From Rugalucina vietnamica (taxonomy: Eukaryota > Mollusca > Bivalvia > Lucinida > Lucinidae), in NCBI GenBank assembly GCA_964017185.1, contig OZ024875.1:60941043-61005042 (forward strand): a stretch of 64,000 nucleotides of DNA, written 5' to 3'. The position numbers were made by a program, and so were the translations under genes. Positions 27,818-62,945 of this stretch are shown here, in pieces (the stretch's first letter is position 1; the number at the start of each line of letters is the position of its first letter). Under the pieces are notes generated by a model. It searched no databases. It had not been told where the DNA came from and saw nothing but the letters and a program-made list of their open reading frames with translations.

Positions 27818-27845
27818 TTTCCTATCCTGGTCACGGCACCAATAA

Positions 27846-28012
27846 TATCTTGGAATGGAATTGAAACACAAGGAAAATGTACACTGTATCACTTTGATTT
27901 GTATTGCGGAAGGACTTAATACTAGGCAACGTTAGTAAAACAGGATACGACGTTAGACGTTAAGAACATTGCATTACGTTAACGTCAACTTTGGCGCTAA
28001 AGATCTCCAACA
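27846..28012 (-). repeat. 5' LTR of the BEL element
   Basis: 167 bp, abutting the duplicated GTAGA at 28013. The gag start codon is 29 bp inward from this LTR. Confidence 0.9.
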
Positions 28013-29729: not shown

Positions 29730-29942
29730 ATGACTAGAAAACCTTTGCACGCCAATGTCAGCAGTTCCACGGACGCTCATTCGACAAATTGGCTCCTTTG
29801 CACATCGGCACAATTTTGTTCTCCAGCAGACGATATTAACGGACCATGTGAAACGCATGTGTGTCTCAAAGCCATGGTCGACAACGCAGTGGGCACACAC
29901 AAAACTATTGAACAATTCAGAGAAAGTCCCGTCCTTCAATGA
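29730..29942 (+). promoter_or_regulatory. Overlapping upstream ORF of gene 1
   Basis: 70 codons starting MTRKPL, 25 bases before the main ATG and in the +1 frame, overlapping it by ~190 nt. The paralog keeps an ORF at the same place ending in the same FRESP..Q. It could reduce main-ORF initiation. Its maintenance may only reflect shared ancestry. Confidence 0.4.
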
Positions 29943-31509
29943 TACCGAAAAAACTTCCCCAGCACGTTGTATTTCTGGGACAACATCATTGACGTCAACA
30001 CAAGCAGCTATTGAAAATTTCAAAAGTGTTTCCACAGAATCAGCGCATGAATCTCGCAAATCAAGTCCATTGCTTAGACGACCATTCGGTGGACTTGAGA
30101 TCATGTACCACCAGGCTATAGCGAATGGTACTGACATTGAATGGGTTTTAGCAAAAGTTGGAACAGTTTTCCCTGTCGATGCGGCAATGTTCGAAAAAGC
30201 ACTATTTTTTCTTGCGGATAGACATCCAATGTTGCGCATGTCAGTTCAGTGCGATGCAAACGATATTTCTTTCCAGGAAACTGACCATTTGAAAATAGAT
30301 TTTACAGCACCAAAATGCGACGATTGGCTTCAACATGTGTCGGAAGAAGTGTCCATTCCATTTGATATTTCGACTGGGCCATTGTGGAGATGCAGGCTTT
30401 TGAAAGTAGGGCGTATTGACCAGCAGAACCAGAAGGAAGTTGCGTCAGATGAGTTCATGTATGAGTCAACTGTACTGTTTGTATCGCATCATTCGGCAAA
30501 AGATGGACGATATCTTTCAAGCATAGTCGGTCAGTTTGTAAATATTCTTAACGACATCGATCTCGACAAACTGAGCACAAACACTCTTCAAGCTTTACCA
30601 CTGTTTCCACCAGTGGAAGATTTGTTGGTATGCCCACCTTTCACCAGGACATCTGAGAAATCTGCTGCATCATCATCACCATCTTCGTCAATAAGCGCCA
30701 ACTTTTCAGATCCTCCAACCCAAGCTATTGATGATTACAATATAAAGTTCCGTCGAGAAATCCAAGATGTCTGGTCAGACCAACCATGTAACCGCTACCT
30801 AATTCATGAGTTCACAAGAAAGGAGACCGCCAAGCTGCTACGATCGTGCAAAGATATGGGATTGTCTTCCACAGGAGTATTAGTTGCCGCCAGTCTGCAA
30901 GCGTTTGCTGATTTAGTTTATTCACCGTCATCTCAAAGGAGAATATGCATTCCGTTTGAATTCGTGCTTGATCTCAGACGATTTTGCCCAAAAGACATCT
31001 TAGAAAGTGCAAAACCTTGCCTACCTGGCGTGGCCTCCACCACCATACCAATGTTTGCAGATTTAGAGCTGTCTCGAGGACCAAAGTCAAACGACGAAAT
31101 ATGGGAAATGTCAAAATCATTCGGACATGCTATTAACAATGAGATTAATTCACAAGAAGCCTTCAAGCAGGCACTGAATATTATCAACGACAGCAAAAAT
31201 CTGAATAAACTTGAACATACAAAAGGGAAGTCGCCATATGTACTGTGTATATCCAATATGGGATGTCTGGATGGCTTGAATGCAAGTATTGTAACAAAAA
31301 GGGTTATGATCAGAGAAATCCATGGACATTCTTCAATCCTAGTTGATGATTGTCCCATATTCTACATGTGTTACTATTCATTAAATGGGAAATTGTACGT
31401 TAACATAAGTTTCTGTGAAAATTATACATCTGTGAAAACAACAGAGAAGTATATGGACTACATTAAAGAATACATTCTGACTCCATCGACAAAGAAACCG
31501 AATCCATGA
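29755..31509 (+). CDS. Condensation-domain / HHxxxDG acyltransferase-like protein, copy A
   Basis: 584 residues in one exon. The in-frame TGA at 29731-29733 closes the frame upstream, so ATG 29755 is the first possible start. Residues 1-42 are R-rich and without acidic residues until D30, which would suit a mitochondrial presequence (inference). From about residue 112, LEIMYHQAIANGTDIEW and LADRHPMLRMS match the start of the condensation / alcohol-acetyltransferase fold. The active-site motif is HHSAKDG (H245, H246, D250, G251), intact. The C-terminal half carries PFEFVLDLRRFCPKD and PYVLCISNMGCLDGL. Members of this superfamily move acyl groups from CoA or carrier-protein thioesters to alcohols or amines; the substrate here is unknown. 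A paralog lies at 43721 on the same strand. Confidence 0.85.
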   Translation: MSAVPRTLIRQIGSFAHRHNFVLQQTILTDHVKRMCVSKPWSTTQWAHTKLLNNSEKVPSFNDTEKTSPARCISGTTSLTSTQAAIENFKSVSTESAHESRKSSPLLRRPFGGLEIMYHQAIANGTDIEWVLAKVGTVFPVDAAMFEKALFFLADRHPMLRMSVQCDANDISFQETDHLKIDFTAPKCDDWLQHVSEEVSIPFDISTGPLWRCRLLKVGRIDQQNQKEVASDEFMYESTVLFVSHHSAKDGRYLSSIVGQFVNILNDIDLDKLSTNTLQALPLFPPVEDLLVCPPFTRTSEKSAASSSPSSSISANFSDPPTQAIDDYNIKFRREIQDVWSDQPCNRYLIHEFTRKETAKLLRSCKDMGLSSTGVLVAASLQAFADLVYSPSSQRRICIPFEFVLDLRRFCPKDILESAKPCLPGVASTTIPMFADLELSRGPKSNDEIWEMSKSFGHAINNEINSQEAFKQALNIINDSKNLNKLEHTKGKSPYVLCISNMGCLDGLNASIVTKRVMIREIHGHSSILVDDCPIFYMCYYSLNGKLYVNISFCENYTSVKTTEKYMDYIKEYILTPSTKKPNP

Positions 31510-35343: not shown

Positions 35344-36580
35344 TTAGCACCATGGTTTAACGTTTGTTTTAAAGACATTTAAGGATTCTGCATGTCGGAC
35401 TGCTTGAGGAAATGAGTTCCATAATCTTGGTGCCGAGCAAGAAAATGCACTGCTATACAACTTTGTTTGTGAAAATGGTACATACAATTCATTCCTCTCG
35501 CTTGAACGAAGGTTACGAGAATGTGCTTGTCACATCGGTGTTAGCAACTTAGTAATGTAATCAGGTGTCATATTATTAAGCGCTTTATATGTAAGAACAG
35601 CTTTGTTGTAATTGATTCTACTTTCTACAGGCATCCAACCAAGCTCCTGAAACATTGAAGCAGATGAGGTATCAAAATCAGAGTTTAGAATTATACGCGC
35701 GGCCCGTTTTTGGAGTTTTAATAATCATGCTACCAAGATTTGCTGTAGACGTAGACCCCCAAGTGATGGAGCCGTAGTCAATCAGAGGAAGAATATAGCT
35801 CTGGTAGAACTGTTTCTGGACGTGTATTGGAACATACTCTGATAACTTTTGCAGTAAAGATATTTTAGATGAGACAATCTTGCACAGATATTCTACATGG
35901 CTACCCCAATTTAGATTTTCGTCAATATAGACACCTAAGTGTTTTTGAGAGGTAACATGTTTGATGCTTACATCGCCTGCCTTTATATCAAAATGATGGG
36001 AACCGTCAAGCCGTTTGCTAGTTCCAACAGTCATGCAAGATGTCTTAGTGTCATGCACGTGCATTTTATTACATTTACTCCACTGCTTAGAGTCATTAAA
36101 GTCAGACTGTACCTTAAATTGAATTGTTGCTTTAACTTTGTCATGAGTGTGGAATATGGCATCGTCAGCATATAAATCTGCTTTACAAAATTTTAGAACC
36201 AAGGGCAGGTCATTTATAAATAGAAGAAAGAGGGTCGGGCCAAGGATTGAGCCTTGAGGGACTCCGGATCGTACATTGGCATATTTAGATAGACCTTTGT
36301 CACTTATTATTGCTTGTTGGCGGCATTCAAGATATGATTCGAACCATCGAATAGCATTAGTACTAAATTTGTACACGTGAAGTTTTTGTATAAGAATGCG
36401 ATGGTCTACTACATCAAAGGCTTTGCGAAAGTCTATAAAAAGTGTTCCTACAATGTCGCCGTTATCAATACATGCCTTCCATTGGTCAATAAGTTTTACA
36501 AGAGCCGTTTGGCAGCTATGTTTCTGTCGAAACCCAGACTGACTTTCATGTAATAATTTAAACTTATTTAAGTAGCCCAT
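35344..36580 (-). pseudogene. Host retroposon: RT palm and C-terminus
   Basis: SQSGFRQKHSCQTALVKLID, FIDFRKAFDVVDH (motif A), SGVPQGSILGPTLFLLFIND (motif B), LYADDAIF (YADD catalytic site), and HLGVYIDENLNWGSHV. After a frameshift near 35700 the C-terminal region continues (QKRAARIIL, ELGWMPVESRI, FPQAVRHAESLNVFK) with one TGA, ending KPWC at TAA 35344-35346. Confidence 0.87.
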
Positions 36581-36591
36581 TAAATGATGAT

Positions 36592-36942
36592 TTATATGCT
36601 TTTCATAGATTTTGAAACTGTGGGTAAAATGGAAATCGGTCGATAATTTGAAGGGTCCGATTTCGTCCCCCCTTTGTAGATTGGAAATACTTTTGCAGTT
36701 TTCAGCTGTGTCGGAAATTTACCGGTTTTAATACTTTTGTTGACTAGTATAGCAATCGAGGGGGCTAGAACATTGGCTGCTAGTTTGATGATTCTCGGAC
36801 CTAATCCATCAATGCCTGTTGCTTTTGAAGAATCGAGTTTATTAATGTATGATAGAACTTGATCAGAAGTTATAAGTGGTATATGGAAGAATGTATTGTC
36901 AGGAAGTTTGCTATTTGTAAAATGTTGCAATCTGTCGAAAGG
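36592..36942 (-). pseudogene. Host retroposon: start of RT domain
   Basis: Resumes after the Naiad fragment at FTNSKLPDNTFFHIPLITSD, then LDSSKATGIDGLGPRIIK and KGGTKSDPSNYRPISILPTV (RT motifs 0-2). A one-base loss in an A run near 36620 shifts the frame into a stop at 36592. Confidence 0.85.
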
Positions 36943-37183: not shown

Positions 37184-38914
37184 CAATGGTCCTGTAAACG
37201 CTCACCTGAAACCCGAGATATATACCAATAAACGTGTTTGACTAGAATGGTAATATACATGCATGTAACCCCTGGGCCGGTTCAGAGCAACCCCTGGAGT
37301 CAATTTCTTTTTCAAATCAAAAACTTTAGTCCATTTGCCAATTTACTGCAAGTTTTGCTCTTCAAATCACATTTTAACAATTTTCCCCATTCAAATGCAT
37401 GGGTGTTTGCAGTAAAATAGGTCAAGGTCATCCAAGGGTCACGGTTTGAATATTATGGTATTTAACTCCAGTGCAGGGGCAGATGAAGCCCTTGGCCATT
37501 TTCTTTTTTCAGAATCTTCAATATTCTGTCCATTTGCCAATTTCCTGCTGGCTTTTGCCTTCAAATGACATTTTAACAGTTTTCCCAATTCAAATGCATA
37601 GGCAACCCATGTTGACCTTGCCATAAACTTGGTCAAGGTCATCACAGGGTCATGATTTATATATACATTGGAGTACTTAAGCCATCGATGCTTCACGCTA
37701 AGTTTCCTTGAAATCAGTCTATTGGTTTCAGAGAAGAAGATTTTTGATGGGTTTTTACCATATATGGGCATGACGGCCATCTTTGTCATGTGACCTAGAT
37801 CATTTATATATACATTGATTCCCCCATTCTATAGATGCTTCACATAAAATTTGGCTTTGATTGGCCAAGCGGTTTCAGAGGAGAAGACGTTTGATTATTA
37901 TGGAAATATACATGCATATTGCCCCGGGGTGGGGGCACATGAGCCCCTGGGGTCCATTTTTTTTTCAGAATCATTAATATTCAGTCCTACTTCCCATTTC
38001 CTGCAAGACTTTCACTTTAAATTACATTTTAAAAGTTTTCCCCATTCAAATGCATTGGCGACCTATGTTGACCTTGCCGTAAAATAGGTCAAGGACATCA
38101 CAGGGTCATGATTTATATACACGTTGTAGTGCTTGAGCCATCAATGCTTCATGCCAAGTTTCGTTGAAATCGGTCAACCGGTTCCGGAGAAGAAGATTTT
38201 TGAAGGGTTTTTACCATAGATGGGCATGGCGGCCATCTTGGTCATGTGACCTGGATTTTTTATATACATATTTGTGACCCCTTCCTATTGATGCTTCACA
38301 TAAAATTTGGCTTTGATTGGCCAAGTGGTTTCAGAGGAGAAGACGTTTGAATATTATGGAGATATACATGTATATTGCCCCGGGGTGGGGGCACATGAGC
38401 CCAGGGGTCCAATTTTTTTCAGAAACATTAATATTCAGTCATACTGCCCATTTCCTGCAAGACTTTCACTTTAAATGACATTTTAAAAGTTTTCCCCATT
38501 CAAATGCATTGGCGACCTATGTTGACCTTGCCGTAAAATAGGTCAAGGTCACCGCAAGGTCATGATTTATATACACATTGTAGTACTTGAGTCATCGATG
38601 CTTCATGCCAAGTTTGGTTGAAATCGGTCCAGTGGTTCCGGAGAAGAAGATTTTTGAAGGGTTTTTACCATATATGGGCATGGCGGCCATCTTGGTCATG
38701 TGACCTGGATTATTTATATACACATTGGTTCCCCCTTCCCATAGATGCTTCATGTAAAATTTGGCTTTGATTGGCCAAGCTGTTTCAGAGAAGAAGATCT
38801 TTGAAAATGGTGGACGACGGACGGACGGACGACGGACGGACGACGGACGGACGGACGACGGAGCATGGGTATACTATAAGCTCACCTTGTGAGCCTGACG
38901 GCTCAGGTGAGCTA
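37184..38914 (-). mobile_element. Helentron-like 455-bp array element, inserted in a Naiad tail
   Basis: Ends AACCAGAGGACCAATGGTCC (3' hairpin) and GGCTCAGGTGAGCT (5' end). Units of ~455 bp are marked by GGCCATCTTGGTCATGTGAC at about 37775, 38231 and 38685. A GGACGGACGAC microsatellite lies near the 5' end (38814-38860). Intact Naiad copies at 52114 and 56340 give the empty site TTCTTTTTGTT/TTATGTCTTGG: the element sits between T residues with at most a TT duplication. Confidence 0.8.
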
Positions 38915-39424
38915 ACAAAAAGAACCACTACAGAAGTATCGACTTGGAACGATCAGTAACACAAAGTTACTGGCGGGCTTAAACCGGTTTTACAGGTACC
39001 TAACCTCACCCTCAGCTTCTGCAGTGGTTCACAACATTTAGTTAGTTCTTCTGTCCTCGTGGTGAATCTCTAACTAGTCAATGAATCATCAAGAACAAAC
39101 AAATAAATCATGATAAACATCCTGATGAATCAAAAACCAGGACTCACAGATTGAGTAAGCTGCCCGACGATGGAGATCCCTGGGCGCCGAATAACCTACT
39201 AACTCCGGAGCAAAAGAAAAACACCAGTTGGACCCCGGTGGGCCAAGCAACAGACAAGAAGCTCCGGCCCCAACCAACTAAAATGAATAGCTTTAAGTCG
39301 GGGCCATCATAGAGTCTGACGCCCGACCCACCGGCGTGCAATTAAAGAAGGCAGCATAGTTATCAACCATGATTGGGTTAAAAACTAAGCATGCAGACTG
39401 TCGCATAACATTCAAGTTATAACC
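38915..39424 (-). mobile_element. Naiad 3' fragment, proximal part
   Basis: Last ~35 codons of the Naiad RT ORF (RIGYNLNVMRQSACLVFNPI), stop region and 3' UTR, near identical to 51605-52115. The SECIS-like stretch is conserved here (ATGA complement at 39307-39310). Confidence 0.85.
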
Positions 39425-39778
39425 TATACGTCTGTAACTGGATATGCTGATTCGGTCTGGTTTCTATTAAGAATATCTGCTATGGAGGTAAAGTATTCAT
39501 TTAGCTTAGTTGCGATATTTTCTGAGCCAGTGAAAGTTTCATCATTTATAATTAATTCATCGGGGAGATCGCTTGAAGAGACCCGTTTATTACTGGTGAC
39601 GGACCGTAGGTGGCGCCATAAAAATTTAGAATCTTTGGAATCGGAAATTGAGTCAGAAAAATATTTTCGTTTTGCTGCTCGTATTAACTGGCGTGTTTTG
39701 TTACGATATCGTTTGAAGTCAGACCAGTTCTTTTTCCGTTTGCTGTCATCCCGCAGTCTCTGCATATGGGTAATATCT
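39424..39778 (-). pseudogene. Host retroposon: endonuclease-RT linker
   Basis: Continues the host frame after the nested element: ITHMQRLRDDSKRKKNWSDF, RNKTRQLIRAAKRKYFSDSI and YFTSIADIL. The SDSDSD residues seen upstream of it in an open frame are not host coding but the microsatellite tail of the nested element. Confidence 0.8.
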
Positions 39779-42133
39779 GAATCTGAATCTGAATCTGAAT
39801 AGTTTACTGGTGACACGCCAAACGACATTATTTCACCAGGGGGTTCGGATGGGGGAGAAATTAGTCCCTTGAACGCACGAGTGTAGCGAACTTGGACACA
39901 CAGTCATCAGACATTTCAGCAGAGGAGATAAGTGAATCAGGGAGGTCATTCCAGTCCCTGATAGTCTGTGGAAAGAAACTACTTTTGTACGCTTCTTTGC
40001 TAGCTGAAGGTATCTGAAAAGCCAAAGAGTGTTGATTTCTACAACGCCTATTCTTTGGGATAAGGTCATCTGTGGGTATTCTGGCTTTACCCTTTAGACC
40101 TTTGTATAGCAATATAAGTCTACTATCCTTCCTCCTTTTCTTAAGAGATTCCCATTTCAGTTGACCTAAAATGCCAGTCATGCTCCCAGTTTCAAAAACA
40201 TAATTTCCCGTCACAAACCTTGCCGCACGATTTTGTACCTTTTCCAGTTCTTCCTGGAGGCCATGAGTGTGAGGGTCCCAAACTGAGCTTCCATATTCCA
40301 AGACCGGCCGCACCAGTCCTTTATAAGCTGCTTCTTTCACATCTGGGGGACAAGAATACAAATTTCTCCTTAAGAATCCGAGAGTTCTGTTAGCCTTTGT
40401 ACAGACATTGGAAATATGAGTATTCCATTTCAAATCATTTGTGATAGTTACACCAAGGTATTTTATGCTTTCAACGTTTTCCAGTACAGTGCCCTCAAGG
40501 GTGTAGTTAGCCTGTATCTTACTAGACCGTTTATTTGTCAGCTGCATCATGTTGCATTTGACGGGTTGAAATCTCATTCCCCATTTCCTAGCCCAACTGC
40601 CTAAACGATCAATGTCTCTCTGAAGTTTCAATGTATCCTCTTCATTCTTGATTTCACGATAGCAAACACAATCATCAGCAAAGAGTCTTATTTCAGACTC
40701 AATGTCTGCTGAGATGTCATTTATATACAAGGAAAACAGCAAGGGGCCGAGAACGGTGCCCTGAGGGACACCCGAGACAACTGGAGCCCAATCCGATTTA
40801 ATACCATTAACCACTACCCTTTGTTGTCGGAAACAAAGGAAAGCATTTATCCAATTCAGTGTTGTTCCACCTATTCCATAGCTAAACAATTTGCTTTTAA
40901 GGAGTTCATGGGGAGGAGTATCAAAAGCCTTTTCAAAATCGAGTATAAAAGTGTCGACCTGGCCTTTTTTGTCTAAGATTTTGGCCCAGTCATTTATCAC
41001 TGTAGTCAACTGAGTTTCACAGCTATGCCATTTCCTAAATGCGTGTTGCCTGTCCGACAAGAGTTCATGTTCATCAAGATGGGCCATAATATTTGAGCAT
41101 ACAATATGTTCAAGAAGCTTACAAGGAATGCATGTCAAAGAAACAGGGCGGTAATTGCGGGCAAGTGACCTGTCGCCCTTCTTAAACAGGGGGCAAATAT
41201 TAGCAAGAGACCATTCTTTAGGAATTTCACCTGTATCAATTGACTGTTGGAAGAGATGGGCGAATACCGGCCCTAATTCCACAGCCAGTTCCTTTAGGAC
41301 TCTGGGATGGAGCTCATCAGGCCCTAAGGCTTTAGACGGGTTTAGACCTTTGAGAAGTTTGGTCACCCCTTCCTTTGTGACCACAATATCATGCATGAAT
41401 GGGGCAGATCTATCCATAAGAGGGACCTGTTTGTATTCACTTTTAGTGAAAACATCCGAGAACTGACCATTAAATTCTTCCGCCTTCTCAAATTCGGATT
41501 GTGCAATTCCGCTTCCATTTCTCTTTTTCAACGGGGGAATACCTTGGGTATCTTTTTTCTGACTGTTTATGTACCTGTAAAAATCTCTAGGATTAGCCTT
41601 AACATCTCCTACCAAGTTGTTCACGTAAAGATCATGCTGCTTCCTGATATCAGCTTTGATCTCTCTCCGTAAAGATTCAAATTTAGATCTAATTTTTGCA
41701 CTACCAGTCTTTTTAGCCTTTGCATGAGTTGCATTTTTTCTGCGAATCTTCCTCCTTATTTCAGGTGTTATCCAAGGGACAGAGGAAACTGAGCGACTAG
41801 TTTTTTCTGCTCTCATAGATTCATAATTACCTTTCTGATAACGATACACTTTTCTCCTAGGTTTCTTTATTGGGGGGATAGCAATTTTCAAAGTGCCGGA
41901 AACAATGTCATGATCACTGAGCTTATCCGGGGAATGAATGTCTGCAAACTGACCAGGAAGAGAGGTCAAAATTAAGTCCAAAGTATTTCTTTCTCTGGTG
42001 GGGAAATTGACTAATTGTTCCAAACCGTGGTCATTCATGATATCTATCAAAATCTGACCCTCCGTCTGACTCAATGATGACCCAGATTTGCTGAGTCTGT
42101 CTGGCCATACAATATCTCTGGCCATACAATATC
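39779..42133 (-). mobile_element. Nested 5'-truncated non-LTR retroposon with target duplication
   Basis: Flanked by a 7-bp duplication of host sequence, AATATCT (39772-39778 and 42134-42140). The 3' end is a microsatellite of four ATTCAG units directly before the duplication. The 5' end shows a 17-bp tandem repeat (TCTGGCCATACAATATC twice, about 42100-42133). The coding frame is open for 754 codons, so insertion is fairly recent. A related 3' end is at 46850-47115. Confidence 0.85.
39861..42125 (-). CDS. Non-LTR retroposon endonuclease (partial) and reverse transcriptase
   Basis: 754 codons, uninterrupted. The first residues (MARDIVWPD) come from the 5' junction duplication. True element coding begins within the endonuclease C-terminal part: NFPTRERNTLDLILTSLP and KLSDHDIVSG. 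Then a basic linker (WITPEIRRKIRRKNATHAKA) and the RT: LKGLNPSKALGPDELHPRVL, KGDRSLARNYRPVSLTCIPC, FILDFEKAFDTPPHELL (motif A), VVSGVPQGTVLGPLLFSLYI (motif B), IRLFADDCVCY (FADD catalytic site), IKYLGVTITNDLKWNTHI, and a C-terminal domain ending SFFPQTIRDWNDLPDSL. The 5' half of the endonuclease and any ORF1 are missing, so this copy cannot move by itself. CR1/Jockey-like by motif order. Confidence 0.9.
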   Translation of the reverse strand: MARDIVWPDRLSKSGSSLSQTEGQILIDIMNDHGLEQLVNFPTRERNTLDLILTSLPGQFADIHSPDKLSDHDIVSGTLKIAIPPIKKPRRKVYRYQKGNYESMRAEKTSRSVSSVPWITPEIRRKIRRKNATHAKAKKTGSAKIRSKFESLRREIKADIRKQHDLYVNNLVGDVKANPRDFYRYINSQKKDTQGIPPLKKRNGSGIAQSEFEKAEEFNGQFSDVFTKSEYKQVPLMDRSAPFMHDIVVTKEGVTKLLKGLNPSKALGPDELHPRVLKELAVELGPVFAHLFQQSIDTGEIPKEWSLANICPLFKKGDRSLARNYRPVSLTCIPCKLLEHIVCSNIMAHLDEHELLSDRQHAFRKWHSCETQLTTVINDWAKILDKKGQVDTFILDFEKAFDTPPHELLKSKLFSYGIGGTTLNWINAFLCFRQQRVVVNGIKSDWAPVVSGVPQGTVLGPLLFSLYINDISADIESEIRLFADDCVCYREIKNEEDTLKLQRDIDRLGSWARKWGMRFQPVKCNMMQLTNKRSSKIQANYTLEGTVLENVESIKYLGVTITNDLKWNTHISNVCTKANRTLGFLRRNLYSCPPDVKEAAYKGLVRPVLEYGSSVWDPHTHGLQEELEKVQNRAARFVTGNYVFETGSMTGILGQLKWESLKKRRKDSRLILLYKGLKGKARIPTDDLIPKNRRCRNQHSLAFQIPSASKEAYKSSFFPQTIRDWNDLPDSLISSAEMSDDCVSKFATLVRSRD

Positions 42134-43701: not shown

Positions 43702-43908
43702 ATGACTAGAAAACCATTGTATGTCAGAAGTCCCACGGACGCTTATTCGCAATATCAGCTGCTTTGCACATCGGCGCCATTTTGTTCTCCAGCAGACGAT
43801 ATTAACGGACCATGTCAAACGTATGTGTGTCACAACGCCATGGCCGAAACCTCAATGGACAAACAGAAAGCTACTGAACGATTTAGAGAAAGTCCCGACT
43901 TTCAATAA
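43702..43908 (+). promoter_or_regulatory. Overlapping upstream ORF of gene 2
   Basis: 68 codons, MTRKPLYVRSPTDAY.., in the +1 frame relative to the main ORF, beginning 19 bases before it and ending FRESPDFQ. Positional match to 29730-29942. Confidence 0.4.
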
Positions 43909-45484
43909 TGCCGAAATAATTTCCCCAGCACGTCTTGTTTCTCGAGCAAAATCCTTGGTATCAACAAAACCAGCTATGGAGAATATCCAGAGTGTCTACC
44001 CAGAATCAGCGCATGAATCTCGCAAATCAAGGTCACTGTTTAGACGGTCACTTGGCGGTCTTGAAATCATGTATCACCAGGCTATAACGAACGGAACTGA
44101 CATTGGCTGGGTTTTAGCAAAAATTGACACCGTTTTCCCTGTCGATGTGGCAATGTTCAAGGAGGCACTATATTTTCTTGCGGATAAACATCCCATGTTG
44201 CGCATGTCAATTCAGTGTGATGCAAACGATGTTTCTTTCCAGGAAATTAACCACGTGAATCTAGATTTTACAGCGCCAAAATGTAACAATTGGCTTCAGC
44301 TTATGTCGGAAGAGATGTCGCTTCCATTTGATATTTCGACTGGGCCATTATGGAGATGTCGGCTTCTAAAAGTGGAACGTCTTATCCAGCGAGACAAGGG
44401 GGAAAGTGTTTCAGACGGGCTTACGTATGAGTCAACTGTACTATTTGTATCGCATCATTCGGCAATAGATGGAAGATATCTTTCAAGCATGGTAAGCCAG
44501 CTTGTGAATATTCTTAACGACATCAATCTCAACAAACTAAGTACAAACACTCTTCAAGCTTTACCATTGTTTCCACCAGTGGAAGATTTGGTGTCATGCC
44601 CACCTTTCACCAGGACATCTGAGAAAGCTGCTGCACCATCGCCTCCAACTTTGTCTTCATCAATTAGCGCCAACTTTTCAGATCCACCAACCAAAGCAAT
44701 CGATGACTACAATATGAAGTTCCGTAGAGAGATCAAAGATGTCTGGTCCGACCAACCACGTAACTGCTTCATAATTCATGAGTTTACAAGACAGGAGACC
44801 ACCCAGTTGCTACGTTCGTGCACAGATATGGGACTATCATCAACTGGCGTATTTGTTGCCGCTAGTCTACAAGCGTTTGCTGATTTAGTTCATTCATCTT
44901 CGCCACACAAAAGAAACATATGCATTCCATTTGAATTCATGCTTGATCTCAGGCGATTTTGCCCAAAAGACATCTTAGAAAGTGCAAAACCTTGCCTACC
45001 TGGCGCAGCGTCCACTACCATACCAATGATTGCAGACATGGAATTATCTTGGGGACCGAAGTCAAACGACGAAATATGGGAAATGTCAAAATCATTCGGA
45101 CATGCTATTAACAATGAGATTAAATCACCAGAAGCCTTCAAGCAGGCACTGGATATTATCAACGGCAGCAAAAATCTGAATAAACTTGAACCAACAAAAG
45201 GGAAGTCTCCGTATGTATTGTGTATATCAAATATGGGGTGTCTGGACGGCTTGAATGCAAACATTGTAACAAAGAGGGCCATGATCAGAGAAATCCACGG
45301 ACATTCTTCTATTCTCGTTGACGACTGTCCCATATTCTACATATGTTACTATTCACTGAACGGGAAACTGTGCGTTAGCATAAGTTACTGTGAAAATTAT
45401 ACATCTGTGAGAACGACAGCGGAGTATATGAACTACATAAAAGAATACATTCTGGTCTCACCGGCGACGAAGTCCAATCTATGA
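43721..45484 (+). CDS. Condensation-domain / HHxxxDG acyltransferase-like protein, copy B
   Basis: 587 residues, one coding exon, paralog of the gene at 29755 and collinear with it except for three extra residues in the serine-rich loop and elsewhere. Motif HHSAIDG at H245-G251 is intact, as are LADKHPMLRMS, FEFMLDLRRFCPKD and PYVLCISNMGCLDGLN. The last ~200 residues are the most conserved between copies; the N-terminal 115 diverge most. The TGA at 43703-43705 closes the frame upstream, so the start matches copy A. Both copies being open and keeping all motifs suggests both are functional. Substrate unknown. Confidence 0.85.
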   Translation: MSEVPRTLIRNISCFAHRRHFVLQQTILTDHVKRMCVTTPWPKPQWTNRKLLNDLEKVPTFNNAEIISPARLVSRAKSLVSTKPAMENIQSVYPESAHESRKSRSLFRRSLGGLEIMYHQAITNGTDIGWVLAKIDTVFPVDVAMFKEALYFLADKHPMLRMSIQCDANDVSFQEINHVNLDFTAPKCNNWLQLMSEEMSLPFDISTGPLWRCRLLKVERLIQRDKGESVSDGLTYESTVLFVSHHSAIDGRYLSSMVSQLVNILNDINLNKLSTNTLQALPLFPPVEDLVSCPPFTRTSEKAAAPSPPTLSSSISANFSDPPTKAIDDYNMKFRREIKDVWSDQPRNCFIIHEFTRQETTQLLRSCTDMGLSSTGVFVAASLQAFADLVHSSSPHKRNICIPFEFMLDLRRFCPKDILESAKPCLPGAASTTIPMIADMELSWGPKSNDEIWEMSKSFGHAINNEIKSPEAFKQALDIINGSKNLNKLEPTKGKSPYVLCISNMGCLDGLNANIVTKRAMIREIHGHSSILVDDCPIFYICYYSLNGKLCVSISYCENYTSVRTTAEYMNYIKEYILVSPATKSNL

Positions 45485-45499
45485 AAAGATTTGTGACAG

Positions 45500-45757
45500 T
45501 ATTCTTTTTGTTTTATGTCTTGGTGTTTACATTTTTGTGCTGTTGGCGCCTTATGTATGTTTTCATATTTTTAGTTAAGTTAAGGTAACTGAGTGGCCAC
45601 CTATTGGGAAAATAGCTGCTCATTCGGCTTGCGATATGTTTCATGGTATAAGTACCTGATTGTTAATTTGGTTTTTTCCCCACCTCGGTTTTTGGAGTGG
45701 GAATCTTTTTCTGATTGCGCCTTTTCCTGTTCTTTGCCTACTTGTACCTTTCTATAG
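45500..45757 (+). mobile_element. Naiad 3' tail fragment
   Basis: TTTTTGTTTTATGTCTTGG to CTTGTACCTTT, inserted just 3' of condensation gene B. Only the last ~250 bp of the element. Confidence 0.75.
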
Positions 45758-47159: not shown

Positions 47160-47670
47160 AAATCCCGAGTTTTTTTATATCAGAAATTCGATTGTTTGAT
47201 ATCAGAAATTATTTTTTTTATATCAGAAATTCGATTTTTTGATATCAAAAAATATTATTTGATATCAGAAAATATTTTTTGATATCAGAAAATCGATTTT
47301 TTGATATCAGAAAATTGAATTTCTGATATAAAAAAAATCGAATTTCTTATATCAAAAATTAACTACAATTTTTTGATATCAGAAATTCGAATTTTTGATA
47401 TCAGAAATTCGATTTTTTATATCAAAAATTTGATTTTTTTGATATCAAAAAATAACCCTGATTTTTTGATATCACAAATTCGATTTTTTGATATAAAAAA
47501 ATCGAATTTCTGATATCAGAAAATCGAATTTCTGATATCAGAAAATAACTACGATTTTTTGATATCACAAAATCCAATTTTTGATATCAATAATTCGATT
47601 TTTTTATATAAAAAATGTAGAGTATTTTTTTATATAAAAAAATTCGATTGTGTGATATCAAAAAAACTTT
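47160..47670. repeat. GATATC-palindrome array 1
   Basis: About 25 irregular ~20-bp units built from TTTTTGATATCA and AAATTCGATTTTT, both self-complementary, so the whole array can fold on either strand. Flanked at the left by GTGCCGTTTTACTATAAAAT. A related array is at 62505-62945. Confidence 0.75.
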
Positions 47671-48904: not shown

Positions 48905-49425
48905 AAACTACCGGTCTGGTCTCTTATGGCAAACCGTAACTTTTGAAAGCTAAGGTTTGTCGTAACTTTTTCAAGTGACAGTTTTCATGGCTTAAATGGT
49001 GTGTTTTATGTCTCCTGAATCTCAAAGTAATACATTACTGACCCCCACTGGTGGCAACAGACACTCCCTGACAAGATCACCTTGACAACCAATGGTCATT
49101 CCCATTTTATTGATGTAAAATGGCTGAAAAACTGCATGAAAACATGGAATTCAATGGTAAGATTTGGTAATAAATTATGCATGTTTACCTAAAATATGAG
49201 TGCTTGAATGCTACTAACCATGTAATTTAAGGCTTCGTTAATTGAACTGACACCATTTTGTATTGATTACGTTTTTTCTGGGCTAGATTACGTTTTTAGA
49301 AAATAACAGCTTCCACTTTCAAAACACAAAAGTTACAATAGACTGTAACTTTTTTCTGTGAAAGGTTACGGCTATCCATGACCATTAAAATGAATGGTTC
49401 ATCGTAACTTTTGTTTAAAAGGGAG
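48905..49425 (+). repeat. Unclassified repeat with GTAACTTTTG motifs
   Basis: Contains GGTCTCTTATGGCAAACCGT then several CGTAACTTT motifs. 62150-62455 has the same material in reverse orientation. Confidence 0.55.
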
Positions 49426-49493: not shown

Positions 49494-50375
49494 AAAATGC
49501 GAAAACGATGTGCTGCAATGAAATTGAACACTTCCCTTATTGACTTAGAGGCTAAACTAAGGGAACACGGTCGACATTCTATGCTTTCTTATCTTAGTTC
49601 TTTACCTATTGCTGTATTACGTTCCTTGGACACAGAGGCTAACAGATTTTTCGATAGAAATCATCCAATGTACACGATGCTGCACTGCTGACAAGTAGTT
49701 ATACTCAACACGCTCTTCGTCAATTTAACGATTCCGAACCTAATCATATACGGCATTTCATTTAAATTCCATTCATTAATAAAGGAATTGACTTTATTGA
49801 TTTACCAAGTATATTCCAGGACAAATCAGTGTCACAGTCTATACCTACGTACTTCCAAAACTCGGAACCTCCTCTTATTTGTTACAAATTTAACAAACCA
49901 ATCAGAAGTACAATTTTTAATTGCAATAAACTTGTTTCTGATCTTGATATCCATGCTAATACTCCTAAGTCTTGAGAGTGTAAAGATTCACAATATCTTT
50001 ATCAATCTTTATCAATATCTTTATATAGTAATTGGACATTTAAAAATAATTTCGGATTCTAGCATTCGCAATATTGTTTCTAAAGGTCAGAAATACAGAG
50101 TCCCTTCGACAAATGTAGAGAGGAGAATGCATCTGCATTAAATGAATTCGGTAATCGATGGTGTAAACGAGAGGGTGTTTAGGATGGTGCTCTTAAAGTT
50201 TGGAAAAGAAGTATATTCACTATTGTGGATAAACGTATAAAGTTTATTCACAAAATACTAATCTTTTACCGCATAAGTCCCAATCGTCCTTTAGGCATTT
50301 TGAAAGGTCCATAGAAAGTATGTCTTTGTTACAGCAGACAAGGCGGCAAACAACGTTGTTGTTTTTTTGTAGGCT
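49494..50375 (+). pseudogene. Old Naiad copy, left part
   Basis: Diverged copy starting in the linker after the endonuclease (KRCAAMKLNTSLIDLEAKLR, HGRHSMLSYLSSLP), with frameshifts. It keeps the in-frame TGA of the UxC motif (TCT TGA GAG TGT, TGA at 49973-49975). It breaks off at TGTAGGCT (50375), where the young insertion starts; its continuation is at 56595. Confidence 0.85.
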
Positions 50376-50392
50376 AAGACAAACTTCCTACG

Positions 50393-51741
50393 ATGTATTG
50401 GTTACCTAAGCTTCACAAAAGACCATACAAAGCTAGATTTATTGCAAATTCTAGCTCTTGTACTACCACTGAACTTTCTAAATTATTAACTTCCTGTCTA
50501 ACTGCTATCAAATCTCATGTTATAAGATACTGTGAGACAGTGTATGAAACTTCAAATAAAAATTGGTTTTGGTCAATTAAAAATTCTGGTGAGGTGCTCA
50601 GTAAATTGAAGTGTAGAGGGTTCCGTGCGACAAGCTTGTCCACATATGATTTTTCTACTCTGTATACAACATTACCACATAATCTAATAAAAGAAAAACT
50701 TCTGGATTTGATAGAGTGGACCTTCAAAAGGGCATTAAAAACTATGGTTCACTTTATTTGGCATGTAATGACAGAAAGGCTTTTTTCACTTCCTCTGACC
50801 AAAGTCGGTATACACTTTGGTCATGTCAGAATGTATGCGACGCCTTATCCTATCTCCTTGATAATATTTATATTAGATTTGGGACCAAGTTATACAGACA
50901 AATTGTTGGAATTCCGATGGGTACAAATTGCGCACCTCTCGTAGCTGATTTATTTTTATACTGCTACGAAAGAGATTTCATGGATTCTCTTAACCATGAT
51001 AATCAAGCTGATGTTATCGAGGCTTTTAATTCCACATCTAGGTACCTCGATGACCTTTTGAACATTGACAACCCTTATTTTGAAGGTATGGTCAATCAAA
51101 TTTATCCACCTGAACTTCAGTTGAACAAAGCCAATATCTCAGATACTGAAGCCCCCTTTTTAGATCTACATCTTTCTGTTGCTAATGGATTTGTTTCTTC
51201 TAAAATTTATGATAAGCGCGATGACTTTGATTTTGATATAGTAAATTTTCCTTTTTTGGATGGTGACGTTCCTCGTCGTGCTTCTTATGGTGTATACATT
51301 TCGCAACTTATTAGGTTTGCTAGAGTCTGCAATCATGTTACAGACTTCAACGCTCGAAATAAATGTTTAACGGCAAAACTTCTCCAACAGGGCTATCGGT
51401 ATCATAAACTTCGAAAAACTTTTTCTAAATTTTATCGTAGACACTATGAATTGATTTCTAAATATAATGTTGGGTTAAAGACGCTTTTAAGTGAGGGCCT
51501 TTCGGAACCTGAATTTTATGGTGACTTGGTTTACAAATTGAAGAAACTTAAAGGAATTAATGATTTTTCTTTTCAGTTCAGAAAAATCATAACACGTTAC
51601 AGACGTATAGGTTATAACTTGAATGTTATGCGACAGTCTGCATGCTTAGTTTTCAACCCAATCATGGTTGATAACTATGCTGCCTTCTTTAATTGCACGC
51701 CGGTGGGTCGGGCGTCAGACTCTATGATGGCCCCGACATAA
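50393..51741 (+). pseudogene. Naiad RT, truncated upstream unit
   Basis: Starts in the RT (YWLPKLHKRPYKARFIANSS). One A is missing from the A run at about 50737-50741 (five, against six in the full unit), which shifts the frame. The second frame then carries GIPMGTNCAPLVADLFL, RYLDDLLNI and the C-terminus to TAA 51739-51741. Confidence 0.9.
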
Positions 51742-52916
51742 AGCTATTCATTTTAGTTGGTTGGGGCCGGAGCTTCTTGTCTGTTGCTTGGCCCACCGGG
51801 GTCCAACTGGTGTTTTTCTTTTGCTCCGGAGTTAGTAGGTTATTCGGCGCCCAGGGATCTCCATCGTTGGGCAGCTTACTCAGTCTGTGAGTCCTGGTGT
51901 TTGATTCATCAGGATGTTTATCATGATTTATTTGTTTGTTCTTGATGATTCATTGACTAGTTAGAGATTCATTACGAGGACCGAAGAACTAACTAAATGT
52001 TATGAACCACTGCAGAAGCTGAGGGTGAGGTTATGGCCATGTAAAACCGGTTTAAGCCCGCCAGTAACTTTGTGTTACTGATCGTTCCAAGTCGATACTT
52101 CTGTGGTGGTTCTTTTTGTTTTATGTCTTGGTGTATAAATTTTTTTTTGTGCTGTTGGCGCCTTATGTATGTTTTCATATTTTTAGTTAAATTAAGGTAA
52201 CTGAGTGGCCACCTATTGGGGAAAATAGCTGCTCATTCGGCTTACGATATGTTTCATGGTATAAGTACCTGATTGTTAGTTTGGTTTTTTCCCACCTCGG
52301 TTTTTGGAGTGGGAATCTTTTTCTGATTGCGCCTTTTCCTGATCTTTGCCTACTTGTACCTTTTTATATCAGAGTTCTTGTGGTTGTGCCGTGTGGCGGC
52401 CCTAAAAAGTCTCCCTGTACATCCATTTAATGCTCTTATTTTTCCAATCCTCAGGGATTGCTTGCAATCAGTTTGTATTTTCCTATCTCTAACTACCACA
52501 ACTCTTCGATACCGTATTGAAGGTCATTAGTTGACCGTCACTCGTATCTCGTTGTATAAGCGATTCTTACGTTTCTATCCATGGACTTGTATTAGACATG
52601 GACCTGAGGTGTGGGTTTCGGTTATACCTTTTTCTTTCATTCGAAAGATTTTGTATTACGATTGAGTGCATTATTTATTCTATAACCGGTATGAGTGTCG
52701 CGCTCCTTTTGGCAGTATCAACACAATACTCCCAACTATGACTATCACAAAAAGATTAGGAATTACATTAACTCCCCTTAGGTCGATGCCGCGTCTACTG
52801 TACGGATTCCTCATTCAACTAACAATTTTCAAAATTTATTACCTACTGTAAGGGTGACACTTCTTAATTTATTTTCGGCATCTACTGTTAATCTACACGG
52901 AGCTTCTAATTCTAAT

Positions 52917-55900
52917 ATGTTTCGTAATAATCTTCAGATTAGGTTATCTCCACTCAAATCACCAATTTTACGTAAATATATTAATCCGTTCAAGAGACCT
53001 GGAATGTACCCTAGTATTTCTAAGTGCAATGCCAAGAAGTGCAACTGTTGCAATCATTTATGCTCTAAGACTACTATCACTTCATCTGTGAATGGTAGGA
53101 CATTTTCAGTGGTTAATGATTCTGATTTAGACTGAAAATCAATGGATCTTGTATATGTTCTTACTTGAAATACACACAATTGTAGGATGCAATATGTTGG
53201 ACAAACTTGTCGAACTTTGCAAAAACGATTTGGTGAGCACTATCGTAGAATCAGAAAGCCCAAAAATAATGATACCTTTCTGTACCAGCATTTTAAGCGC
53301 ACTGGTCATTCTCCCAATAATGTTAAAGTTCAACCACTGGAGAAGATCTCATATGATGAAAATTCTTCAGTTAGATTCAAAAACATTAAACGATTTGAAA
53401 CTGAACTTAAATGGATAAAATTACTGCAAACACCCTTTCCACTGGGATTTAACGACAACATTTACCATGAAGGCAATATTTCCAAAATGCCCGATTTTGA
53501 TGTACTTACACTTTCGGACTCTCGTAAACGTAAATCTAGATCTCATGGTATACGGAAAAAGGGTAATGACAAACGTAAACGGTGCGCTGCATTGAAATTG
53601 AACATTTCTCTTAACGATTTAGCTGTTAAACTAAGGATTCACGGTCGACATCCAATGCTGTCGTATCTTAGTTCTCTACCTATTGCTGCATTACGTTCCT
53701 TGGACACAGAGGCTAATAGATTTTACGATAGAAATCATCAAATGTATGACGCTGCACAGTTAACAAGATGTTATACTCAGCATGCTCTTCGTCCATTTAT
53801 CGATTCCGAATCTAATCACATTAGAAGTTTTATTAAAATTCCTTTCATCAATAAAGGAATTGACTTTATTGATTTACCAAGCATATTCCAGGATAAATCA
53901 GTGATACAGTCTATACCTACCTACTTCCAAAATTCAGAACCTCCTATTATTTGTTACAAATATAACAAACCAATCAGAAATACAATTTTTAATTTCAATA
54001 AACTTGTTTCTGATCTTGATATCCATGCTAATACTCCTAAGTCTTGAGATTGTAAAGATTCAAAATATGTTTATCAACCCGCTGGACATATTGTTACTGG
54101 AAATTTAAAAATAATTTCGGATTCTAGAATTCGCAAAATTGTTTCTAAAGGTCCGAAATATAGATTCCCTTCCTACATTAATTTCGACAAATGTAGAGAG
54201 GAGATTTCATCTGCATTAAATGATTTCGGTAATCGATGGTGTAAACGAGAGGGTGTTGAGGATAATGCTCTTAAAGAATGGAAAAGAAGTATCTTCACTA
54301 TCGTGGATAAACGTATTAAGTTTTATTCACAAAATACTAATCTTTTACCTCCTAAACCCAAATCGTCATTTAGGCATTTGAAGCAGGGTATCCAAGAATT
54401 TCATAGAAAGTATGTCTTGGTTCCGGCAGATAAAGCCGCAAACAATGTTGTTGTCGTTTGTAGGCTTCACTACGTTAACACCTTAAAACAGGAGCTTGAT
54501 GGTACCAGGGCTTATCTGGAGACAGATACTGATGAGGTGTCTGTGGTTAATGCCCACTTAAACGATTTACCTGTTAAGTTTTCTGTTTGTGTCAATGAAG
54601 GCCAAGACAAACTTCCTACGATGTATTGGTTACCTAAGCTTCACAAAAGACCATACAAAGCTAGATTTATTGCAAATTCTAGCTCTTGTACTACCACTGA
54701 ACTTTCTAAATTATTAACTTCCTGTCTTACTGCTATCAAATCTCATGTTATAAGATACTGTGAGACAGTGTATGAAACTTCAAATAAAAATTGGTTTTGG
54801 TCAATTAAAAATTCTGGTGAGGTGCTCAGTAAATTGAAGTGTAGAGGGTTCCGTGCGACAAGCTTGTCCACATATGATTTTTCTACTCTGTATACAACAT
54901 TACCACATAATCTAATAAAAGAAAAACTTCTGGATTTGATAGAGTGGACCTTCAAAAGGGCATTAAAAAACTATGGTTCACTTTATTTGGCATGTAATGA
55001 CAGAAAGGCTTTTTTCACTTCCTCTGACCAAAGTCGGTATACACTTTGGTCATGTCAGAATGTATGCGACGCCTTATCCTATCTCCAAGATAATATTTAT
55101 ATTAGATTTGGGACCAAGTTATACAGACAAATTGTTGGAATTCCGATGGGTACAAATTGCGCACCTCTCGTAGCTGATTTATTTTTATACTGCTACGAAA
55201 GAGATTTCATGGATTCTCTTAACCATGATAATCAAGCTGATGTTATCGAGGCTTTTAATTCCACATCTAGGTACCTCGATGACCTTTTGAACATTGACAA
55301 CCCTTGTTTTGAAGGTATGGTCAATCAAATTTATCCACCTGAACTTCAGTTGAACAAAGCCAACATCTCAGATACTGAAGCCCCCTTTTTAGATCTACAT
55401 CTTTCTGTTGCTAATGGATTTGTTTCTTCTAAAATTTATGATAAGCGCGATGACTTTGATTTTGATATAGTAAATTTTCCTTTTTTGGATGGTGACGTTC
55501 CTCGTCGTGCTTCTTATGGTGTATACATTTCGCAACTTATTAGGTTTGCTAGAGTCTGCAATCATGTTACAGACTTCAACGCTCGAAATAAATGTTTAAC
55601 GGCAAAACTTCTCCAACAGGGCTATCGGTATCATAAACTTCGAATAACTTTTTCTAAATTTTATCGTAGACACTATGAATTGATTTCTAAATATAATGTT
55701 GGGTTAAAGACGCTTTTAAGTGAGGGCCTTTCGGAACCTGAATTTTATGGTGACTTGGTTTACAAATTGAAGAAACTTAAAGGAATTAATGATTTTTCTT
55801 TTCAGTTCAGAAAAATCATAACACGTTACAGACGTATAGGTTATAACTTGAATGTTATGCGACAGTCTGCATGCTTAGTTTTCAACCCAATCATGGTTGA

Positions 55901-55970
55901 TAACTATGCTGCCTTCTTTAATTGCACGCCGGTGGGTCGGGCGTCAGACTCTATGATGGCCCCGACATAA
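52917..55970 (+). CDS. Naiad GIY-YIG endonuclease-reverse transcriptase with three in-frame UGA (candidate selenoprotein)
   Basis: 1017 residues if TGA is read as selenocysteine. Start uncertain: first in-frame ATG is 52917; the frame is open back to the TAG at 52779. In order: a cysteine-rich segment (KCNAKKCNCCNHLC); UGA at 53133-53135 (residue 73) and 53166-53168 (residue 84), flanking VYVLT of the GIY-YIG core; YVGQTCRTLQKRFGEHYRRI; a basic linker; UGA at 54045-54047 (residue 377) in KS-U-DC, where the family has its CxC motif; GHIVTGNLKII and GPKYRFPS; then the RT with STYDFSTLYTTLP (motif A), GIPMGTNCAPLVADLFL (motif B) and RYLDDLLNI (motif C, LDD). All three interruptions are TGA, share one frame and fall at expected cysteines. 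Naiads with several selenocysteines are reported from clams (established knowledge). If UGA is not recoded, only fragments would be made. Confidence 0.85.
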
Positions 55971-56012
55971 AGCTATTCATTTTAGTTGGTTGGGGCCGGA
56001 GCTTCTTGTCTG
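55945..56012 (+). promoter_or_regulatory. Candidate SECIS element over the Naiad stop codon
   Basis: Lower helix CAGAC (55945-55949) with GTCTG (56008-56012). Core ATGA (55953-55956) opposite GGAG (55998-56001), giving tandem G.A/A.G pairs. Ten-pair helix 55957-55966 with 55989-55998 (GGCCCC-GGGGCC in the middle). AAA at 55969-55971, 12 nt after the core. An upper mini-helix AGCTA/TAGTT closes the top, as in type II SECIS. Odd point: the TAA stop (55968-55970) lies in the apical part, so the 5' strand is translated. Found by hand folding. Confidence 0.6.
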
Positions 56013-56594
56013 TTGCTTGGCCCACCGGGGTCCAACTGGTGTTTTTCTTTTGCTCCGGAGTTAGTAGGTTATTCGGCGCCCAGGGATCTCCATCGTTGGG
56101 CAGCTTACTCAGTCTGTGAGTCCTGGTTTTTGATTCATCAGGATGTTTATCATGATTTATTTGTTTGTTCTTGATGATTCATTGACTAGTTAGAGATTCA
56201 CCACGAGGACCGAAGAACTAACTAAATGTTATGAACCACTGCAGAAGCTGAGGGTGAGGTTATGGCCATGTAAAACCGGTTTAAGCCCGCCAGTAACTTT
56301 GTGTTACTGATCGTTCCAAGTCGATACTTCTGTGGTGGTTCTTTTTGTTTTATGTCTTGGTGTATAAAATTTTTTTTTGTGCTGTTGGCGCCTTATGTAT
56401 GTTTTCATATTTTTAGTTAAGTTAAGGTAACTGAGTGGCCACCTATTGGGGAAAATAGCTGCTCATTCGGCTTACGATATGTTTCATGGTATAAGTACCT
56501 GATTGTTAGTTTGGTTTTTTTCCCACCTCGGTTTTTGGAGTGGGAATCTTTTTCTGATTGCGCCTTTTCCTGATCTTTGCCTACTTGTACCTTT

Positions 56595-57490
56595 TCACTA
56601 TATTAACACCTTAAAACAGGAGCTTGATAGTACCAGGGCTTATCAGGATACAGATACTGATGAAATGTCTCTAGTTAATGCTCACTTAATGATTTACCTG
56701 TTAAGATTTCTATTTGTGTCAGTGATGGCCAAGACAAACTTCCTCAGATGTATTGGTTACCTAAGCTTCACAAAAGACCATACAAAGCTAGATTTATTGC
56801 TAATTCTAGTTCTTGTACTACCACTGAACTTTCTAAATTATTAACTTACTGTCTTACTGCTATCAAATCTTATGGCATACGATACTGTGAGACGGTGTAT
56901 GAAACTTCAAATAAAATTGGTTTTGGTCAATAAAAAATTCTAGCGAGGTGCTCTGTAAATTGGAGTGTAGAGGGTTCCGTACGACGAGCTTGCCCTAATA
57001 CAATTTTTCTACTCTGTACACCACATTGCCACATAATCTGATTAAAGAAAAATTACTCGATTTGATAGAGTTGACATTCAAAAATGCATAAAAAACTATG
57101 GCTCACTTTATTTGGCCTGTAATGATAGAAAAGCATATTTCACTTCCTCTGACCAAAGTCGATATACACTTTGGTCATGTCAGAATGTATGCGATGCCTT
57201 ATTCTATCTCCTGGATAATATTTATATTAGATTTGGGATCAAGTTATACAGACAAATTGTTGGAATCCCGATGGGTACCCATTGTTCTCCTCTCGTAGCT
57301 GATCTATTTTATACTGTTACGAAAGAGAATTCATGGATTCTCTTAACCATGACAATTAAGCTGATGTTATCGAGGCCTTTAATTCGACTTCTAGGTACCT
57401 CGATGACCTTTTGAACATTGACAATCCTTATTTTGAAGGCATGGTCAAACAAAATTTATCCCCCTGAACCACAGATGAATAAATCAAACT
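56595..57490 (+). pseudogene. Old Naiad copy, right part
   Basis: Continues the old copy from TCACTATATTAACACC. RT pieces in several frames (YWLPKLHKRPYKARFIANSS; GIPMGTHCSPLVADL; then RYLDDLLNIDNP after further shifts), with many indels. Ends at AACCACAGATGAATAAATCA, where a tail fragment is joined. Confidence 0.8.
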
Positions 57491-57741
57491 GGGAAAATAG
57501 CTGCTCATTCGGCTTACGATATGTTTCATGGTATAAGTACCTGATTGTTAGTTTGGTTTTTTCCCAACTCGGTTTTTGGAGTGGGAATCTTTTTCTGATT
57601 GCGCCTTTTCCTGATCTTTGCCTACTTGTACCTTTTTAGTACCTTATTGTTAGTCTGTTTTTTCCCGCCTCGGTTGTTGGAGTGGGAATCTTTTTCTGAT
57701 TGCGCCTTTTCCTGATCGTTGCCTACTTGTACCTTTTTATA
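57490..57741 (+). mobile_element. Two Naiad 3' tails in tandem
   Basis: 57490-57640 (GGGAAAATAGCTGCTCATTC to CTTGTACCTTT) and 57641-57741, a shorter repeat of the last ~100 bp. Tandem tails are common for Penelope-like elements. Confidence 0.75.
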
Positions 57742-62149: not shown

Positions 62150-62455
62150 TTCTTATCTAATACAATAAAATGATCTGTCTTTATGCATTATTGGTATAGA
62201 GTTATTTGTTATTTTGCATAAAACAGTAACATTCCAAAAATATAGAGACCCCAAAATTGCCTCCCACAAAAAATTATGGAATACTGTAACCTTTTTAAAT
62301 TTTTGAATTATTATTTCTCCCTTCATCAAAGCGTCCCCTAGTGAAGAAGTTTTATAAAAGTTAAGGATTACCGTAACTTCAGAATTTATCAAGAGTTACG
62401 GCAAACCTTAGTTTTCAAAAGTTACGGTTTGCCATAAGAGACCAGACTGACTACT
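62150..62455 (-). repeat. Unclassified GTAACTTTTG repeat, reverse copy
   Basis: Carries the complement of 48905-49425 motifs, ending ACGGTTTGCCATAAGAGACC at about 62443. Confidence 0.55.
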
Positions 62456-62504: not shown

Positions 62505-62945
62505 CAGATTTTTTGATATCAAAAAATCGAATTTTTGATATCAAATAATCGCTTTGATTTTTTGATATCAGAAAATCGAATTTTTTTATATCAAAAAATC
62601 GAATTTTTGATATCAGAAAATCACTTTGATTTTTTGATATCACAAATTCGATTATTTGATATCAGAAAATCGAATTTTTGATATCAGAAAATCGATTTTT
62701 TTATATCCAAAAAATTCGCTTTGATTTTTTGATATCAAAAATTCGATTTTTTATATCAAAAATTCGAATCAAAAATTATTCGAATCAAAAATTCGAATTT
62801 TTTGATATCAATTAAGGAATAACCCTGATTTTTTGAAATCACAAATTCGATTTTGTGATATCAAAAATTCGATTTTTTGATATCACAAATTTGATTTTGT
62901 GATATCAAAAATGCTGATTTTACAGTAAAACGGCGCCTTTTAGGT
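62505..62945. repeat. GATATC-palindrome array 2
   Basis: Same class of units as 47160-47670. Bounded at the right by ATTTTACAGTAAAACGGCGC, the complement of the left border of array 1, so both arrays belong to one element family. Confidence 0.75.

Follow-up and report, generated by a model that had tools for sequence, protein, structure and literature searches.

Among Penelope-like elements (PLEs), a permuted domain order, in which the GIY-YIG endonuclease lies ahead of the reverse transcriptase (RT), defines the Naiad and Chlamys elements. Naiads are further marked by a CxC motif in the linker, a CCHH set in the endonuclease and the lack of a canonical hammerhead ribozyme, ribozymes being known in other PLEs. 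The insertion of selenocysteine (Sec) is costly and inefficient; several UGA codons served by a SECIS in one mRNA are found in multi-Sec selenoproteins, e.g. selenoprotein P. A selenocysteine kind of Naiad is known, and rare: selenoprotein Naiads were reportedly found in clams and spiders by Craig, Yushenova, Rodriguez and Arkhipova in 2021 (Mol Biol Evol). Here we describe an element present in a 64-kb stretch of DNA from Rugalucina vietnamica (the whole stretch analysed, hereafter the window) which, judged from its sequence, is very probably a selenocysteine-encoding, Naiad-type Penelope-like retrotransposon whose UGA codons 73, 84 and 377 would be decoded as Sec by means of its own SECIS and the host machinery. 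It resembles the clam and spider Naiads in having a GIY-YIG endonuclease at the N-terminus, an RT at the C-terminus, a linker of the CxC type, several Sec UGAs, tandem copies and high copy number, and, in this comparison of general features, it may be one of these published elements or a sister. Membership of this group, the principle of which is already known, is our best reading of the element; the original prediction had considered it probable, and the Cys homology, the TGA codons of other copies, the host machinery and the SECIS all speak for it.

Translation shows that positions 52917-55970 of the forward strand form one reading frame of 1,017 codons plus a final TAA (55968-55970), with an N-terminal GIY-YIG endonuclease, a U-x-C linker and a C-terminal RT. 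As originally predicted, endonuclease and RT share this frame, which is broken only by codons 73 (53133-53135), 84 (53166-53168) and 377 (54045-54047); all three are TGA, and neither TAA nor TAG occurs before codon 1018. Each of the five remaining frames of this region contains 40 to 142 stop codons, of all three kinds. Since there is no in-frame TAA or TAG upstream as far as 52782, the true start may lie 5' of the ATG at 52917. Taken alone, the TGA-only pattern is poor support for recoding. The original argument was that decay would mix the types of stop codon. Premature in-frame stops elsewhere in the sampled copies are of all three types (17 TGA, 16 TAA and 8 TAG), and against this background three TGA codons would arise by chance in about 7% of cases. 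Strong support comes instead from the SECIS, from the host machinery, from the recurrence of the codons in other copies and from Cys at the corresponding positions of relatives, together with purifying selection past codons 84 and 377.

No match to RT or GIY-YIG families was obtained when pieces of the frame were searched against Pfam and NCBIfam, and neither sequence searches of the PDB with the frame nor an IMG/VR scan gave a match. Both domains were identified via another PLE in this genome, one with the canonical order (L122 and L111, of the Penelope/Poseidon type), which matches Pfam RVT_1 as well as Pfam GIY-YIG. Codons 37-179 (53025-53453, forward strand) are homologous to its endonuclease (BLASTP, 3e-11), and codons 500-914 (54414-55658, forward strand) to the RT encoded by the L122 open reading frame (ORF; BLASTP, 4e-14), and the positions of these two regions therefore give the permuted order of the Naiad and Chlamys elements. 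L122 and L111, on the other hand, have the RT first and the endonuclease last, Cys instead of Sec, and no stop in a frame of 964 aa. L111 had been considered as a Cys-type Naiad and was ruled out by its canonical order.

The original prediction placed two of the UGA codons beside the GIY-YIG core, at positions where family members have Cys, and read the third as giving U-x-C in place of CxC; alignment with Cys-containing relatives from the same genome bears out all three placements. Fourteen GIY-YIG elements, several of them of one family, were obtained from the best 150 of 451 candidates; they have Cys in 13 of 14 cases at codon 73 (F in L114) and in all 14 at codon 84, and the alignment at both codons is unchanged when Sec is masked as X. 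Codon 84 lies just past the GIY half of the endonuclease and corresponds to the first Cys of its Cys-Cys-His-His set: U84, C89, H108 and H125 align with C, C, H and H of the relatives, the last H being gapped in one of the 14 (L114). As for codon 377, a Naiad-like relic (L009), which is about 36% identical in the linker, reads TPVCSCNSSKFCYQPVGHVITGD opposite TPKSUDCKDSKYVYQPAGHIVTGN of the window element. This alignment makes codon 377 the first C of CxC, so that, if Sec is counted as Cys, U-D-C at codons 377-379 equals the C-S-C of the relic. The endonuclease of L009 was not found, and L009 has no bearing on codons 73 and 84. With roughly eight conserved Cys columns among 1,017, a rough estimate of the probability that three stops fall on Cys columns by chance is about 5e-7. 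In the endonuclease of the relatives, the replaced Cys residues probably bind zinc; that U-x-C has a redox role is a guess.

The end of the frame overlaps a SECIS element, which was absent from the original prediction. It was identified with the Rfam model SECIS_1 at 55945-56012 on the forward strand (37.4 bits, cut-off 35), and by its position in the DNA it starts ahead of the frame end and 3' of all three UGA codons. The TAA stop lies inside it, on the conserved A's of the SECIS model according to the Rfam alignment and in the unpaired, A-rich apical part according to the predicted fold. A longer base-paired stem surrounds the SECIS (55928-56030, forward strand; predicted fold of 55925-56030, -59.6 kcal/mol), and its 5' arm is coding sequence. 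Two further SECIS elements score above the Rfam cut-off, one in the upstream partial unit of the element (51716-51783, forward strand) and one in a truncated element copy at 38914-39438 (39251-39318, reverse strand); besides these three, nothing in the 64-kb window reaches the gathering threshold of Rfam, and no hammerhead ribozyme was thus matched. The twister-P1 model gives a weak match, probably by chance, in the 3' UTR of the Naiad units at 56278-56342 and 52049-52113 (20.8 bits, cut-off 67.2; E 1.4). With selenoprotein P the element has in common several UGA codons and a SECIS in one mRNA; it differs in having one SECIS per unit, positioned on the stop codon, and in being a mobile element.

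Elsewhere in the genome, a SECIS above the cut-off is present in four of eight further copies scanned, L012, L019, L023 and L028 being those without one, and the old copy L013 (86-89% identity, TCA at codon 377) has kept it. When the alignments are restricted to 94% identity or more, variants shared between copies occur at 2 of 103 sites of the SECIS region compared with 80 of 1,009 third codon positions (p 0.03); the difference from the rest of the 3' UTR, with such variants at 33 of 565 sites, is not significant (p 0.15). Both shared variants of the SECIS region fall on positions that are unpaired in the predicted fold.

A frame that is open but for TGA would look identical, from the frame alone, if UGA were simply read through, or reassigned to Trp, Arg or Cys, without any selenium. 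We regard this as highly improbable: the positions concerned are occupied in the relatives by Cys rather than by Trp or Arg, and the SECIS, the tRNA-Sec and an SPS2-like exon of the host would be left without a role. Two tRNA-Sec genes, both with anticodon TCA according to ARAGORN, score above the cut-off of Rfam, at 79 and 71.2 bits, and 22 further matches lie below it; the same search gave matches in all 14 control genomes, above the cut-off in five. A search for selD, matched exon by exon, gave four exon-size matches on contig C7, all of them below the cut-off of 125 (best 46.5), and matches in 13 of the 14 control genomes. Upstream of the selD matches lies RLTKFADLKG-TGA-GCKVPQEVLLKLL, an SPS2-like exon with an in-frame TGA which we take to be the Sec site of SPS2; a TGA at this site is a further point against a selenium-free decoding of UGA. 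The host machinery that decoding as Sec would require, and which the original prediction proposed to look for, is therefore represented in part, by the tRNA-Sec genes and the SPS2-like exon, the selD match itself being below its cut-off.

The three codons recur as TGA in other copies of the element. Forty-nine copies out of 85 loci were aligned to the frame; the 36 left out are the window copy L001, the duplicate L057, the divergent L009 and L037, eight loci from the tRNA search, five from the selD search and 19 short 3' stretches. Among the aligned copies, which are neither independent nor random (they are mostly young and related, some are neighbours in arrays, and part of them were picked by high score), no exception to TGA is seen at codon 73 (24 of 24) or at codon 84 (23 of 23), and codon 377 is TGA in 44 of 47, the remainder being two TGT and one TCA. 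Pattern searches list exact-flank, least diverged copies: codon 377 was TGA in 97, TGT in 2 and TCA in 1 of the first 100 of 1,530 places (flanks without mismatch), and codon 84 was TGA in 100 of 100 among the matches listed for 469 exact-flank places. For the latter pattern the flanks were taken from other copies; with the window's own flanks it occurs at two places only, because the window copy has a flank change that is absent from the sampled copies. Genome-wide, exact-flank places with a codon other than TGA at 377 comprise three TGT, one TGC and two TGG. Reversion to Cys within the family was considered as evidence and rejected, since four Cys codons (three TGT and one TGC) against two TGG are too few to be told apart from neutral mutation. 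The TGT copies L011 and L012, as well as L013 with TCA, show visible damage elsewhere, L120 is a single copy with TGG, and as far as seen neither the two TGT copies nor L120 represents an active Cys lineage.

In a sample of 20 copies with a variant motif, codon 377 is TGA in 17, TAA in one (L103) and not alignable in two. No other lesion was found within the 143 bp fetched for L103, and its TAA is what a mutation in a single copy would give, one copy among these counts. The original prediction that other copies would have only TGA, TGT or TGC is thus borne out by TGA in nearly all of those counted, with TCA, TGG and the one TAA as exceptions at codon 377; codons 73 and 84, at which it had likewise named TAA or TAG as evidence against itself, are TGA in every copy counted. 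Two wider searches, whose sets overlap, found TGA in 147 of 149 family places (best 150 of 1,949 candidates) and in 149 of 150 places including the query L086 (best 150 of 2,276 candidates), a few places having a further TGA or TAA. The L086 search also gave one further close relative with one TGA and one TAA inside, and TGA at codon 377 is kept in a relative at 67% amino acid identity.

Purifying selection was assessed from codons with one changed base, a variant being counted as shared when it occurs in at least three copies. Shared nonsynonymous/synonymous counts (N/S) are 1/3 for codons 1-72, 10/26 for codons 85-376 and 19/68 for codons 378-1017, compared with private counts of 14/7, 110/60 and 303/173, respectively, and with a neutral expectation of about 2.9 (transitions weighted 2). 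Shared and private variants differ strongly in the second and third segments (Fisher p 7e-5 and 5e-13); in the first (p 0.27), one N and three S shared variants are too few to prove selection. No stop is found among the variants common to at least three copies, and two among those common to two. Because the shared variants are mostly synonymous and include no stop, the parts of the frame after codons 84 and 377 would, as we read it, have been translated in the lineages that spread.

These data bear on the possibility that the element is decayed and that its TGA codons are ordinary premature stops, spread by a master copy while intact elements complemented it in trans. The best-scored copies are closely related, so that one ancestor could have spread the stops, other positions of single copies carry stops of every type, and one copy has TAA at 377. 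Nevertheless, we consider this explanation very improbable in view of the purifying selection past codons 84 and 377, Cys in relatives at all three sites, the SECIS at the frame end, the retention of TGA even in the 67%-identical relative, and the absence of an intact Cys-coding lineage among the best-scored places of the two wider searches. It is also conceivable that the UGA codons are real stops and that initiation after each of them yields separate endonuclease and RT pieces; Met codons do follow the stops, e.g. at codon 91, and selection acting on each segment would look alike. However, codon 84 separates the GIY half of the endonuclease, which precedes it, from the YIG half, so that an endonuclease divided in this way would be broken, and the SECIS would be unexplained; we attach hardly any probability to this arrangement. 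By the same token, termination at codon 84 leaves no endonuclease, and a complete endonuclease, as well as any RT fused to it, needs this UGA to be read.

Returning to selenocysteine decoding, we infer the following course of events, in which the decoding itself, the zinc or redox role of the residues and mobility are all conditional. The transcript would be translated into a single protein, about 1,017 residues long, the SECIS at 55945-56012 recruiting tRNA-Sec together with a SECIS-binding protein and eEFSec (the last two presumed) for insertion of Sec at codons 73, 84 and 377. Sec would then take the place of the Cys used by relatives, twice in the Cys-rich GIY-YIG endonuclease and once in the U-x-C linker that precedes the RT, and the protein would cut DNA and reverse-transcribe its own RNA, giving rise to tandem or partial-tandem copies. 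For the protein of another PLE, DNA cleavage and reverse transcription have been shown in PMC11167929, which also describes a tandem organisation with pseudo-LTRs like that of the window element; this biochemistry supports the mobility part of the model by analogy only. The family, present at 1,530 or more places in one genome, would thus have spread even though each protein needs three Sec insertions, and its many copies could serve as natural replicates in which to ask why Sec replaces Cys, whether Sec acts as a metal ligand or as a redox switch in an endonuclease, and whether selenium supply limits a transposon. It also represents an annotation hazard, as gene finders would probably report short dead fragments.

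The least familiar feature of the element is the stop codon on the SECIS, and we know of no such overlap in the 2021 Naiad report. The overlap itself is observed; a limiting effect on synthesis is our proposal. The UAA would supply A's to the apical motif of the SECIS and the 5' arm of the long stem is coding, and a ribosome finishing the protein must therefore melt the SECIS, so that full-length synthesis would limit itself. That the element is in this way a selenium-gated, self-limiting retrotransposon is a tentative idea, which we think is somewhat unlikely to be correct. If it were true, transposition would hinge on the supply of selenium and the spacing of ribosomes. With a SECIS on the stop codon, how termination and recoding are related can be tested directly.

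Self-alignment delimits a full unit of 4,231 bp (52365-56595, forward strand), which lies head-to-tail behind a 5'-truncated, pseudo-LTR-like unit (50376-52364, forward strand), the two being 99.25% identical over 2,000 bp. Tandem and partial-tandem copies with pseudo-LTRs are thus present, and arrays elsewhere in the genome have a spacing of 4,226 bp. On both sides lies an older, decayed relative: its left part (49500-50375, forward strand; 84.5% nucleotide identity) still has TGA at codon 377, and its right part (56594-57483, forward strand; 90%) picks up at the homologous base. From this arrangement, the full and partial units appear to be inserted into the older relative, split at 50375/56594; no clear target-site duplication was seen around the insertion. 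The window occupies positions 60941043-61005042 of contig C7. The assembly comprises 1.09 Gb in 47 contigs, 17 of which account for about 1,088 of 1,090 Mb and therefore indicate about 17 chromosomes. The count of at least 1,530 places was obtained with the codon-377 pattern at up to three mismatches, the reversed control giving one. In a protein search, RT frames without a stop were found in 69 of 69 cases, matching the whole query at 99-100% identity (best 69 of 34,262 candidates), and the element looks like a recently active retrotransposon.

Several other observations concern the surroundings of the element. Behind the older copy, two 101-bp tandem copies of the Naiad 3' terminus are located at 57536-57739. 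Two ORFs that look intronless and encode about 592 aa, 43706-45481 and 29734-31506, are 85% alike in DNA and show weak similarity, below the Pfam cut-off, to condensation/acyltransferase domains; 20 bp past the first of them, at 45502, the 3' end of a Naiad unit follows in the same orientation; the two could form a chimeric retrocopy or have come together through insertion by chance. The Naiad region is bracketed by inverted arms of 57 nt (48914-48970 and 62391-62447; 95% complementary, 13.4 kb apart), and arrays of a GATATC-rich 22-bp unit at 47170-47665 and 62507-62921 form many inverted repeats. Finally, the window contains further retroelement ORFs at 25643-27928, 35681-36718 and 39864-42131, one with DUF1759/DUF1758 domains, as found in BEL/Pao polyproteins, and two LINE-like with RVT_1.
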